DNA of 64,000 nt from Sinotaia quadrata (Eukaryota; Mollusca; Gastropoda; Architaenioglossa; Viviparidae), in the NCBI GenBank assembly GCA_028829895.1, contig CM054183.1, positions 14,913,975 to 14,977,974 on the forward strand. The letters run 5' to 3'. Below are positions 1,318 through 48,825 of the stretch, in pieces; position 1 is the first letter of the stretch, and the number at the start of each line of letters is the position of its first letter. The notes under the pieces were generated by a model. That model saw nothing but the letters and a program-made list of their open reading frames with translations. It did not search any database and was not told the DNA's origin. The translations under genes and the position numbers were made by a program.

Positions 1318-1515
1318 AACCCTATTCCCAGACTTAAGCGGACCAAATAAGCTTAAAAACCAGACTTATGTCGACCTACAGCAATAGGCAGACCGCCTCT
1401 TGGTCTGCCTAAGTTTCAGATTGTTCATTCTTATAAATAAAGCTTAATTTTGCCATTTTTCTCTCATAGTTTTATCTTTGTTGTTATTATCTTTGACATA
1501 AACCACTAAATTTCA
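1318..1515 (+). repeat. Left terminal inverted repeat of giant element
   Basis: About 200 bases here match, in inverse orientation and with small gaps, the sequences ending at 40933 and 41136. Shared blocks include CCAGACTTAAG, GCTTAAAAACCAG (a variant in the partners), GTCGACC, AGGCAGACC and GGTCTGCCTAAG. The outermost 60 bases also match the end at 48825. A second partial site (GCTTAAAATCCAGAGTTATG) occurs near 1600. Confidence 0.8.
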
Positions 1516-3117
1516 TATTTTAATAGTTTTTCCTGTGAGTTTTCATCGAAATTCGGGTGCGATTTTGAAGGTTGTATACTTCGGGAATTATTGATATGCT
1601 TAAAATCCAGAGTTATGTAGACCGTTGAAAAAGTGGTTGTAACTATGTAGTTTGCGTGTATACTATATACTCCCTAAATGTCATCGTTTAGAAAAGAATG
1701 TCTTTCATCGATATAACTGATTAATTTTACTAAATTCAGTTTATTTCTACATTTAATTAAGCGTGAGGTTAAGGTACCCTGTTGACAACGATTTTATGGT
1801 CACACTACGTACCTAATTAAACACAATATGGAAGTGAAAAGAATGCTCTGGAAAGGTAAAACTGAAACTGGCTGATATAATGTGTATATTAAAGTCATAA
1901 TAATCAAATTAGAATCTCCATACACTTTAAAATAATTTTAAAACATATTTTTTGTAACTCGACTCGAACACGTTAAATTGGATTGCTTCCCTTTTCCTGT
2001 ATCACTGTTTAAGGGACCAAAATGTATATTTTTATTTTCTACAAACTGGCTTAAATTAACGATTCAAGTGGCCTTTCTCTAGGTTAAGAAATTACTTTTA
2101 CATCTATTATAAACAAATAGAATGCCGCTTTTGTGGTTTAAAGATTAGAATATTGCTTAAACTCGCTCAATCGAAGAACTGCTTTTTTTCAAAATGGCGG
2201 CTTACGAGTGTCTAGTATTTAAGTAGGTTGCACACGAACAATATAAACTAAAATAAAGGCTAAAGGCTTACTTAAATTTGATATTAATAATGATATTTAA
2301 TTTTTCAAAGGAAAAAGCTACACATTTTAAGAAGCATTATTTAAGTATTTTATTCTGAACTCGATCTCAATGTACAATGACAGCCTATATTAGTTATGCA
2401 TGTAAACAACAAAGAGCAAATTAATTGTTTGGTTTAAATTTTAACAATTATTGTATTTTCAAAACGAATAAACTGTTACATTAAAAAGTCTGCTTAGAAA
2501 TCAGTAGAGGATTATTTGCATAATTTTCAGAGTTTATTTTCTTGAAATCACCATTAGCTATATAGATTTTGCAAAATTATTGATTAAATAAGTTGTGGAA
2601 ATATATTAGATTTTATAAATCAACATCATATGAACAATAGAATTAAATGTAACATTAACTATTTATTTTTATTTTTTTTATATGTTTATCTAATTAATAC
2701 TCTTGTAATACAAGTTATTTCCATTTAAAGAATTGTGAAAGCACTAGAAGTAAAACTACTATTCAAAACAAAATTAAACCATGTGATACTTTGAAATATT
2801 TTTCAGATTTATACATAATATATTAATATTAGTATAATTTTAACACTGCAAATTTCATTAAGTCAGACCCATTTGGTACTCTGAAATCTTGTTTACAGCA
2901 GTTGACATTTTTCCTAGTGGATATTACTTGCCTCTGAAATACACTTCTAACTGGTATTTATTTGGAAAAAATAATTAATTTCTATGCAACACTTTTATTA
3001 AATATTGACTTTTACAAGGAGGATAGTGAGAGACCTGTGTAATATTCAAAATTCCTTTCAAGATAATATGTTCTTACCAACAAGAATAGCTATCCCACTT
3101 CTTTGTAATTAATTCTA

Positions 3118-3430
3118 ATTTATACATGCATGTTTGTAAATCAATTTCTGCATCATAATAATACATTCCACCATTCATTTAACTGTGTACTGATGGATTT
3201 GACTTGTTATACATTGTCATAAATTTATAAATATCATTCAGCTTGTAAAATGCACTACTCAGTTGTTAAGCTCTCTAATTTATAGATGTATGTTGTAAAT
3301 CCATTTCTGCACCATAATAATACATTCCATCATTCATTTTACTGTGAAATGATGGATTTGATTATTATACTAAATTATAGATACGTAAATATCATTCAGC
3401 TTGTAAGATGCACTACTCAGTTATTAAGCT
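3118..3430. repeat. Tandem duplication, unit about 150-165 bp
   Basis: Two adjacent copies share blocks such as TTTCTGCA(T/C)CATAATAAT, ATTCAGCTTGTAA and TGCACTACTCAGTT. The copies have diverged by substitutions and small indels. Confidence 0.85.
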
Positions 3431-3964
3431 CTTATATATTTCCAGGTCTTGAAAAAACACACTCTGCTATGTTTATAGCAGGAGTGCGATTATTACTGCT
3501 ATGTAAATATAATAATTTCTAACAGTAGTAATAATACTGAAGTCCAAGAAACTGAAGAAAGATATGTCAATAGAAAAACTGAATATTTACTGTTTCCATT
3601 TAACAAAACTGTTTGAATAGTGATAGTGATAGTTAACATGTTCATAATGTATAACTGAAAGTTACAGGGCAATATTATATACAGTTAATACAGCTTATAT
3701 AGCTACAAAATGATCATGGATTAGGAAAGTTGTTAAAAAATAATAGAACATACTACCAGACATATAATAGATAACCTGAAATAAGACAACTACCTTATAT
3801 TCAGTTATTCAGTTAATAGTTAAATACACTAATAAAAAAAATAAAACATAAATAATAAGATTGTTGCATTGTATGAAGCAAATAAAGTAGCACTAAAGTG
3901 ACAAATCCATTATGTTTTCAGCTTGTGTTGTATACAACACTTTAGACTCTCACTCACTGATCCA

Positions 3965-4135
3965 CTATTAAAAATCACTAATCTTGTGAATACATATGAA
4001 ATATTTTCTTAATAATAGAACTGACTCAGATTGGATTATGAGACTATTAAAAATATGTAATGTTGCAAATACATATGAAATATTTTCTTAATAGTAGAAC
4101 TGACACATATTGGATTATGAGACTATTATTAGGCT
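3965..4135. repeat. Tandem duplication, unit about 80 bp
   Basis: Two copies share AATACATATGAAATATTTTC and GGATTATGAGACTATTA, separated by about 80 bases. Confidence 0.8.
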
Positions 4136-46130: not shown

Positions 46131-46449
46131 ACAGTGAAATATCGCTATAAGGCGATAATTGGGGTCCATAAAATCGGATTGCATTAATAGTGGGCTTTTT
46201 ACAATATTTGACTTTTTTCTGTGAACATATACGTCTATTCATGTCTAATGTAAAAGGTTGGGTTATTATGGGACGAATATTAAATGGAATGCATTATTAA
46301 GATATATTCAAAATAATGGACGGATATAATATCTATAGGTTTTTACTTTGCGTTAAATAGTTTTACTAATTTTTATTTGTTTGTACGATAATACACATTG
46401 TCCCATAATACCCCGAGTGACGTAATATCACGAATTAGGTTACACTGTA
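46131..46449. mobile_element. Possible pogo/mariner-type MITE
   Basis: The left end reads TACAGTGAAATATCGCTATA, a form common at pogo/Tigger-like ends. The right end reads TTACACTGTA, giving a short imperfect inverted repeat with TA at each edge. The 319 bases between have no coding capacity. Confidence 0.35.
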
Positions 46450-46789
46450 TTACAACACCGCCAAGCCCAGCCAACATGTTTGCGGCTTTAGTTCTTTGAT
46501 GTTTATTAAATTGTGAAAATATTTTATCAACCACCGCATTGTCTGCTGTTTGGTTTTGTGCAACAATTGTATAATAATTAATTAAATATAATCACTAAAC
46601 TACTTACTGGCCTTACTCATGGATCAGTAATAAGTAACATATCCGATAATGTTTATTTTGGAATAACACTTCAAGAACCTGGTGAAATCCTTACATTTCG
46701 GATCGTTTTATATTAAACGTAATATGCGAACTCTTCCCCAAAATGATAATACACTTTTTACACACTATGTTTCTTTAGTTTATTGAAAA

Positions 46790-48320
46790 TAATTTTAAAT
46801 AAAGAAACATGTACATTATTTATTAGAGTATAATATATGCTTATCTGCATAGCACTGGTTTTAAGCAAATATTGTCCACGTACCTCTAGTTGCATTAAAC
46901 ATTAATTTTCCAAACTCATCACTAAATTACATTTACTGATTTAGTGTCTCGTATAACATGAATTTGAATCTAAATCTTGTATTAAATAGTGATAAATTAA
47001 AGAAGCATTACTTTATTTATTTGAGTGACATGTATGCGGTCTGCATGTTGCTGGTTTTTAAGCACTTAATGTCCACCAAAGGATGGTTTTAAAGCATAAA
47101 CCTTTTACTTTCCAATTTTAATACCAAATTAAATATGGGACTTTTCAACATACTTTAAAATTTGAACAATTTATTAAATAGTGATACAATAATGTTAAAT
47201 AAAGAAACTTAGCTTTATTTATTAGAATGACATATACATGTCTGCGTATTGCTGGTTTTTAAGCAAATAATGTCTGCGTATTGCTGGTTTTTAAGCAAAT
47301 AATGTCTACGTAAGGCTGATTTTTAAGCATACACTTATTTTTCACAAATTCAACACTAAATAGAAACTGTGGTCCTTTAAAATGATTTTGCATTTGAATC
47401 CTGCATTAAATAGAAATAAATTTAAGAAACGTTGCTTTATTTATTACAATAATGTTTAAGTTGCCTGCATATTGCTGCATTGCTGGTTTCAAAGTTTACA
47501 TTGTACAAGTAAGGGTGTTTTATAAGCATAACACTTTTACTTTCCAACTTTAATACCAAATTAAATTTGGGGTCCTTAAACATGATTCTGAGTTTGAATC
47601 TTTTTTTAAATGGTGAGAAATTAATAGTAAATATAGAAAAAATATAGAAAAATCAAGTTATTTCCAAAATTAACTTACAGGTATGATTACTTTTTAAATT
47701 TTTTAATAGCAAATTATGCTCACATAAGGTTGTTTTTAAAAGAAAAAAGCTTTTATTTTTGTAAGTCAACACTATATTGATTTTGTGGTCCTTTAATTTA
47801 ATTTTGACTTTAAACCTGTATGAAATAGTGATAAATTAAGGAAACCTTGCTTTCCTTTATTTATTTGAGTAACATATATGTTGTCTGCATATTGCTGGTA
47901 TGTAAGCACATAATGTCCACCTAAGGCTGTTTTTAAAACATTTACTTTCCAATTTTAATACCAAATTAAATTTTGGACCTTTTAACATGCTTTTAAATTT
48001 GAACAATTTATTAAATAATGAGACAATGGCATTAAATAATGAAATATAGCTTCATTTATTAGAATGACATATATGTCCACATATTGCTGGTTTTTAAGCA
48101 AATGATGTCTGCTTAAGGCTGGTTTTTAAGCAAATGATGTCTGCTTAAGGCTGGTTTTTAAGCAAATGATGTCTACTTAAGGCTGGTTTTTAAGCAAATG
48201 ATGTCTACTTAAGGCTGGTTTTTAAGTATAAACATATATTTTTCCAAACTCAAGATTTAATTGAGTTTGGAGTCCTTTAACATGATTCTAAATGTATATC
48301 CTGATTTAAATAGTAATAAA
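46790..48320. repeat. Subterminal higher-order tandem repeat, unit about 400 bp
   Basis: About four or five degenerate units share TTTATTTATTAGAATGACAT, the motif GCTGGTTTTTAAGC, an AATACCAAATTAAAT block and a TTAAATAGTGATAAATTAA block. Each unit carries one or more copies of the motif found in the terminal inverted repeats. Confidence 0.85.
48080..48235. repeat. 32-bp tandem array of the terminal motif
   Basis: Five consecutive copies of GCTGGTTTTTAAGC follow each other at 32-base spacing, with AAATGATGTCT and a TTAAG step between them. Further copies follow at 48540-48620 and 48780. Confidence 0.92.
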
Positions 48321-48764
48321 TCAATATAAAAACTCAACAATATATTTTTATTCATACCAAATTGTGGACTTTTAGATTATAAAATGAGATACATCTATAC
48401 AAATATCTATTAAAGCAAATGTATTCTTCTACTTTTGATTTATATTTATAACCAATACATTTATTTATGCAGAGTCATGGTTTTTAAAAAGATTCATTTG
48501 TTTACAACTATAAAATTGACCATTTTAACTAAGTGTCCACATAATGCTGGTTTTTAAGTACGAGTCCCATAATGCTGGTTTTTAAGTGTATGTGTTTGTC
48601 TACATAATGCTGGTTTTAGGGTTATAGGAATTAGGCAGACCACAAAACATGTATATTTTTTGTTATTTGATATTTTTTCTTCAAATTAAGTACGTTTGCT
48701 ATTAGTGATGTCTAAAAGCAGAATGTGAAAAAAAAATGTTAATTTTATTATTATTATGGGATAT

Positions 48765-48825
48765 ACACTGTGTCCACCTAATGCTGGTTTTTAAGCATGG
48801 TCTACCTAACGCTGGAAATAGGGTT
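48765..48825 (-). repeat. Outer right end of the giant element
   Basis: About 60 bases match the left terminus in reverse, from GTCCACCTAATGCTGG through GGTCTACCTAACGCTGG to AATAGGGTT. The match is weaker than that of the internal copies at 40731-41136, but this end is the one that abuts host-intron sequence. A TA run follows. Confidence 0.78.

Follow-up and report, generated by a model that had tools for sequence, protein, structure and literature searches.

The 64,000-nt stretch of the Sinotaia quadrata genome analyzed in this study (positions 14,913,975 to 14,977,974 of contig CM054183.1, GenBank assembly GCA_028829895.1; hereinafter, the window) contains in one of its introns a giant insertion with short inverted ends and a tyrosine recombinase gene, a member of a transposon family that is likely moved by its own recombinase. 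At the left junction, a host (CA)n/(TA)n run extends to position 1318 and includes a (TA)14 tract (1291..1318, by junction and repeat reading) interpreted as the target core, with the element starting at 1319 with ACCCTATTCCCAG. At the right junction, CTGGAAATAGGGT ends at 48824 and is followed by (TA)11 (48825..48846, by junction reading) and then by the host intron, so that the distance between the two TA tracts is 47,506 bp. Two further copies of the interrupted intron are present in the window behind later exon copies, and both flanks of the insertion align with them, the insert being absent (left flank: 51751-52389 at 90.7% and 50559-51089 at 87.7%; right flank: 51094-51753 at 90.7% and 52410-52932 at 81.3%). 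Both breakpoints fall at the same place in these two paralogous introns, neither of which holds the insert and which have only 2 or 3 TA units where the filled window site has 25. This alignment confirmed the two uninterrupted intron copies recognized in the original prediction (an earlier reading of this DNA), and its insertion coordinates proved right to within one base.

The AACCCTA...TAGGGTT inverted ends proposed for the insert were also borne out: the left arm ACCCTATTCCCAG and the near-reverse-complement right arm CTGGAAATAGGGT agree at 12 of 13 nt, a degree of match to the arm reached by none of the 94,576 internal 13-mers on both strands of the insert. The left end (1319..1542, + strand) is a ~230-bp module that starts with its arm and includes a TTAGGCAGACC/GGTCTGCCTAA hairpin motif, and the right end (46787..48824, - strand) comprises ~2 kb of degenerate subterminal repeats (GCTGGTTTTTAAGC) closed by the right arm. 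The exact 30-mers of these ends occur 168 times (left) and 205 times (right) genome-wide, with zero occurrences for reversed-pattern controls.

The main exon of the recombinase gene (35321..37354, + strand), delineated by open reading frame (ORF), domain and fold searches, has an open frame and two zinc motifs; its ORF (35441-37354) encodes 638 residues, with the catalytic domain at approximately residues 400-610 of P0002. A C-terminal exon with a stop codon, encoding a basic domain common to the relatives, is predicted at 40270..40496 (+ strand; tblastn, 30 of 120 relatives), with the acceptor AG at 40268-40269 and TAA at 40494-40496. All but one of the catalytic residues expected of a tyrosine recombinase are present in the ORF, with their roles assigned by what we take to be the motif of this class, and the predicted fold matches the structures of XerH and Cre (Foldseek), in agreement with the intact tyrosine-recombinase-like gene described earlier. 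The best matches in a viral fold library are integrases of phages and of some insect and giant viruses (best E 4.7e-5). At the sequence level, the Pfam Phage_integrase model scores 17.2 bits, below its cut-off of 27.1, and a PDB sequence search returned only weak zinc-finger matches. The search for relatives yielded 338 proteins at E<=0.001. Snails, oyster, sea cucumbers, starfish, fish, a frog and a beetle are represented among the 120 listed, and the best-scoring named relative among these comes from a marine snail. Pattern matches to DNA of these relatives in IMG/VR and GTDB contigs (7 and 42, respectively) were in no case confirmed. In two of the 38 aligned sequences (P0006 and P0118), a SET (histone methyltransferase) domain is fused N-terminally to the recombinase.

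A search of the entire assembly (984 Mb in 26 contigs, with the window on C7) revealed 72 matches to the recombinase protein. In this search 69 of 92 candidates were scored, and its copy counts are lower bounds. Thirty copies cover 629-638 of the 638 residues at 99-100% identity, with a stop-free frame in 27 of them and a single stop in the other three; a 31st copy is split in two pieces, and the remaining matches are older or partial. Such preservation of the frame (27/30) suits a selected or recently active gene. Nine recombinase copies (that of the window plus eight others), were compared over 4.9 kb each, and the differences amount to 0-6 substitutions and at most 24 gap columns. Decayed relatives at C4:137.8M, 138.4M and 80.87M consist of numerous fragments (44-63% identity) interrupted by several stops, and probably represent older families of the same kind.

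The ends of the element likewise recur, and they recur as pairs. A first look gave 660 candidates for the left end (300 bp) and 489 for the right end (402 bp), and the 40 of each that were scored were all essentially identical. Among these 40 left ends, 26 pair with a right end, 11 of them enclosing the recombinase (35.8-50.3 kb) and 15 without it (22.7-35.1 kb). A right end is listed for 21 of the 31 recombinase copies, at a distance of 13,383-13,515 bp in 20 cases and 16,368 bp in one, and a left end for 16 of the 31; where measured, the gene is interior, 22-43 kb from the left end and mostly 13.4 kb from the right. A pairing of the exact ends (left and right, in the same orientation, within 70 kb) was confined to C1, C2 and C3 to ~133.4 Mb, a territory containing 78 of the 100 left ends and 99 of the 100 right ends listed. 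As many as 72 of these 78 left ends have a right-end partner 11.6-56.4 kb away, compared to zero pairs in the opposite-strand control and two in the wrong-side control, and the co-occurrence of the two termini at other loci, posed earlier as a check, is thereby established. The recombinase (with decayed relatives left out of the scoring) is present in 10 of the 72 pairs, spanning 34.0-56.4 kb, and absent from 62, with a median of 26.0 kb. On the paired territory, each of the nine near-full-length recombinase copies and the split one lie inside an end pair. The 47.5 kb originally assigned to the insert is the true extent of the window copy and not the basic size of the element, as 9 of the 11 measured recombinase-bearing copies are 35.8-39.3 kb long; in the window copy, satellite units and a nested retrotransposon of 8.3 kb have added to this length. 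The distribution of copies is uneven: the first 100 left ends listed include 48 on C3, compared to 17 on the longer C1 and 18 on C2 (with C4 covered in part), as if C3 collects or retains copies of the element.

Junctions were read at 21 insertions, including all 11 with the gene (the window among them) and 10 of the 15 without it. The inverted arms are present at all 21 junction pairs and (TA)n flanks all 21 insertions on both sides (2-36 units on the left and 5-40 on the right), and the host flanks at these places, distributed over seven contigs, differ while the ends stay the same. The unit recurs with precise ends, in one kind of target, with the gene linked to the ends. The many repeats and satellite arrays within the insert might suggest that segmental duplication or an assembly artefact, rather than transposition, had multiplied it; the constancy of the ends amid differing flanks, always at (TA)n, and the empty paralogous introns render this explanation extremely unlikely. 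A TTAA target, as used by piggyBac and considered here for piggyBac/Teratorn-type elements, was found at none of the 21 junction pairs, all of which lie in (TA)n.

A second empty counterpart was found for an insertion into a 44-bp tandem repeat, the neighboring units of which have the empty site GAAATATA^CTTTG, and the filled unit reads GAAATATA, element, (TA)5CTTTG. In both cases for which an empty counterpart is available, a short TATA-like sequence appears to have served as the target. Joined host flanks of the copy at C1:128.3M matched only its own two flanks, providing no further empty site. On C3, two elements lie head to tail and have a single R-(TA)12-L junction in common. Another pair (C3:15687380-15687530) is arranged left end to left end across one (TA)12 tract, and the element at C7:79.2M sits in the TA center of a ~40-bp host palindrome (97.5% over 40 nt).

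Combining these observations, we consider it probable that this is a family of giant transposons, with ends recurring as 72 mapped pairs and lying in (TA)n wherever junctions were read, moved by the tyrosine recombinase that it encodes. The original interpretation as a tyrosine-recombinase transposon is supported by the pairing of the termini elsewhere and by the agreement of the paralogous breakpoints, with the recombinase as the presumed mover. When joined, the ends would form CTGGAAATAGGGT-(TA)n-ACCCTATTCCCAG, i.e., two 13-nt inverted arms around a TA core, an arrangement actually seen at the head-to-tail junction on C3. Inverted repeats of 11-13 bp separated by a spacer of 6-8 bp are described as typical of the sites used by this class of recombinases (PMC3212892). 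In the mechanism that we propose, the recombinase would bind the arms CTGGAAATAGGGT and ACCCTATTCCCAG and cut in the TA core between them, the element would be excised as a circle joined R-(TA)n-L, and the TA core of this circle would recombine with TATA sites in the chromosome. TA units traveling with the circle would account for the extended (TA) run on either side of an integrated copy, and deleted copies would be moved in trans.

Copies without the recombinase gene were analyzed at two loci. The 22.7-kb copy on C2 corresponds to window positions 1299-14452 and 42288-48844 at ~98% identity, the two blocks being separated by ~2 kb of rearranged segments of the same element. All its ORFs of 100 aa or more either are low-complexity runs or also occur in the window repeats, and none of the three tested frames reaches a Pfam cut-off. 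The middle of the 35.1-kb copy on C1 follows the window to ~17.5 kb and resumes near 43 kb, and this copy has received an independent insertion of the same retrotransposon family as that nested in the window. In its central 18 kb, the one frame tested reaches no Pfam cut-off; the other long frames belong to the retrotransposon, to low-complexity runs or to stretches common with the window. Judging from sequence, both copies (one read as a whole, the other in its middle) look like internal deletions that kept both ends.

Several observations weigh against movement by the encoded recombinase. First, the recombinase as the mover and the circle as the intermediate are inferred; no circle, excision or recombination was observed. 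Second, at least 90% of the 38 aligned sequences have Thr (T549) three positions before R552, a position which we take to be usually His, and the structural match is confined to approximately residue 190 onward, with a whole-query Foldseek TM-score of 0.37. Third, some ends are unpaired (27 of the 99 right and 6 of the 78 left ends), and at the two insertions for which an empty site was found, TA is more abundant in the filled sequence, which blurs the exchange point; the additional TA units appear to have been added with or after insertion. Finally, most pairs are devoid of the recombinase (62/72), and the combination of terminal inverted repeats (TIRs) with a TA target is also that produced by a DDE transposase.

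The main rival explanation is that a DDE transposase encoded elsewhere, with a TA target, mobilizes the element in trans as a TIR transposon, with the recombinase gene as a passenger. Enzymes of the Tc1/mariner or Ginger2-like type would fit the inverted ends and the TA target, and the lack of the recombinase in 62 of the 72 end pairs agrees with this view. Sesarmid nimaviruses with a Ginger2-like enzyme and a 46-bp TIR insert in (AT/TA)n (PMC10871703). A precedent is also provided by MarCry-1_FO, in which a Crypton is fused to a Mariner: it has TIRs of 16 bp and TA duplications and is moved by its DDE enzyme (PMC3212892). Nevertheless, no frame of the window copy reaches a transposase model, and none does so in the 22.7-kb copy or the central 18 kb of the 35.1-kb copy (four frames tested, the rest judged by eye). 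The search for a DDE transposase gene was limited to the copies read and gave none; short exons of another transposase, spliced or decayed, could have been missed. That 27 of the 30 copies have an intact recombinase, as would fit a gene that is under selection or was active recently, also speaks against a passenger. Overall, we regard this alternative as rather unlikely.

Two inverted internal copies of the left end, pointing right, are located just past the recombinase gene (40720..40936 and 40938..41144, both - strand, by sequence comparison), the second being 94.5% like the first. Both internal inverted left ends were found in five of six other copies checked, and may represent extra recombinase sites or relics of an older end. 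The sixth copy gave none, a further point against the proposed reading, probably because extra DNA between the gene and the right end shifted the stretch read. These internal ends were considered as the true right border of the element, and this possibility was rejected because the distance from the gene to the right end is near-constant. They also raise the possibility of a composite origin, in which a recombinase element with ~230-bp inverted ends (1319-41139) was fused to a second piece (41140-48824) and the outer ends now move both. Consistent with such a fusion, the similarity of the left end to the inverted internal copies extends over ~230 bp, and that to the right end over only ~75 bp; on the other hand, the right-hand piece has no left-pointing terminus at its start, and other copies have the same layout (with the internal ends in 5/6 and the right end at a near-constant distance in 20/21), so that any fusion would be old. 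This origin, which can hold together with movement by the recombinase, appears possible yet somewhat doubtful.

A young long terminal repeat (LTR) retrotransposon nested in the window copy (20677..28976, + strand; 8.3 kb) has LTRs at 20677-22222 and 27431-28976 that are 99.9% alike over 1,546 bp, and its order gag, protease, integrase, reverse transcriptase and RNase H places the integrase before the reverse transcriptase. It lies inside a satellite array of ~896-bp units (16973..32397, + strand, by repeat analysis), with inverted units at 7954-9555. The only two ORFs of at least 150 aa (with ATG, GTG or TTG start) in the insert encode the retrotransposon polyprotein and the recombinase. Pfam matches of the other insert ORFs are all below curated cut-offs, an Rfam scan of the window gave nothing at its thresholds, and no mobility gene other than the recombinase was found in the window copy outside the nested retrotransposon. 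Likewise, the ORFs of the window copy and the tested frames of the two deleted copies revealed no cargo gene, although short spliced exons could escape such a search. Giant recombinase-bearing integrants seated in microsatellites are known from crustaceans (PMC10871703), which brings to mind that the insert might be what is left of a large endogenous DNA virus, similar to nimaviruses, that carries a recombinase; with only two ORFs of this length, one of them from the retrotransposon, and no match to a viral family at cut-off in the tested frames (those of the retrotransposon aside), a viral ancestry of this kind is highly improbable.

Among known systems, fungal Starships have a captain recombinase at one edge and carry cargo genes. 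The snail element is like them in its giant size (34.0-56.4 kb for 10 gene-bearing copies) and in its tyrosine recombinase. It is unlike them in that its recombinase gene is interior, that DUF3435, which we take to be the Starship captain family, is matched by none of the 38 aligned sequences, and that no cargo genes were found in the ORFs and frames tested. The parallel is, therefore, one of size and enzyme class and not of content, and the giant Starship-like counterpart suggested originally holds only to this extent. Microsatellite-associated miniature inverted-repeat transposable elements have (TA)n on both sides, as does the snail element, but are short and non-coding, whereas the snail copies extend over 12-56 kb, some with a recombinase. 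With Cryptons, the element has in common that it is a DNA element in which a tyrosine recombinase is the only transposition gene found here, with a presumed role in movement; a circular intermediate has been proposed for Cryptons (PMC3212892), and some CryptonV families insert in microsatellites (PMC8869645). However, Cryptons are described in PMC3212892 as having neither TIRs nor long direct repeats, in contrast to the TIRs, subterminal repeats and 34-56 kb copies of the snail element. A Pfam search of the 38 aligned sequences (query included) at E<=0.01 gave no match to DUF3504, the recombinase domain type of animal Crypton lineages. As described in PMC10871703, endogenous nimaviruses of crustaceans are also giant integrants, several with zinc-finger tyrosine recombinases, and target simple repeats or 28S rDNA; members with a recombinase integrate in (TAACC)n or 28S rDNA, and those found in (AT)n insert by means of a Ginger2-like enzyme. 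In contrast to these, no viral genes were found in the snail element. Finally, TIR transposons with DDE enzymes (Tc1/mariner, Ginger2) resemble it in TIRs and TA target, with the exact TA duplication blurred, and differ in that a DDE transposase gene was not found in the window copy or in one full recombinase-less copy.

Giant DNA transposons of animals are few, and the tyrosine-recombinase ones found in our searches are endogenous viruses of crustaceans. The literature searched (preprints and most subscription papers lying outside) listed no giant animal transposon with both TIRs and a recombinase, which leaves such an absence unproven. With ~30 nearly identical recombinase-bearing copies of 34-56 kb with precise inverted ends, plus more gene-less copies, the family described here would, if moved by its own recombinase, represent a giant, nearly gene-free recombinase transposon of animals, and suggests that tens of kb of mostly non-coding DNA can move as a unit in an animal genome. 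It also offers a testable function for a widespread, unnamed family of animal recombinase-like proteins and a direct assay, with a 13-nt arm, a TA core and a 638-residue catalytic exon as its components. As a tentative extension, for which the odds are somewhat unfavorable, the zinc-finger recombinase family of snails, oysters, sea cucumbers, starfish, fish and frogs might drive an entire class of giant animal TIR transposons that target (TA)n and spread mainly as deleted passengers of tens of kilobases; if true, this class would be an animal answer to fungal Starships.

Outside the insert, the host sequence next to a repeated exon contains a tandem array (52872-53402) in which a 37-bp unit is present 14 times. 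Further downstream, two matches to the chitin-binding domain CBM_14 were detected, one below the Pfam cut-off (60038-60289) and one above it (60982-61320).

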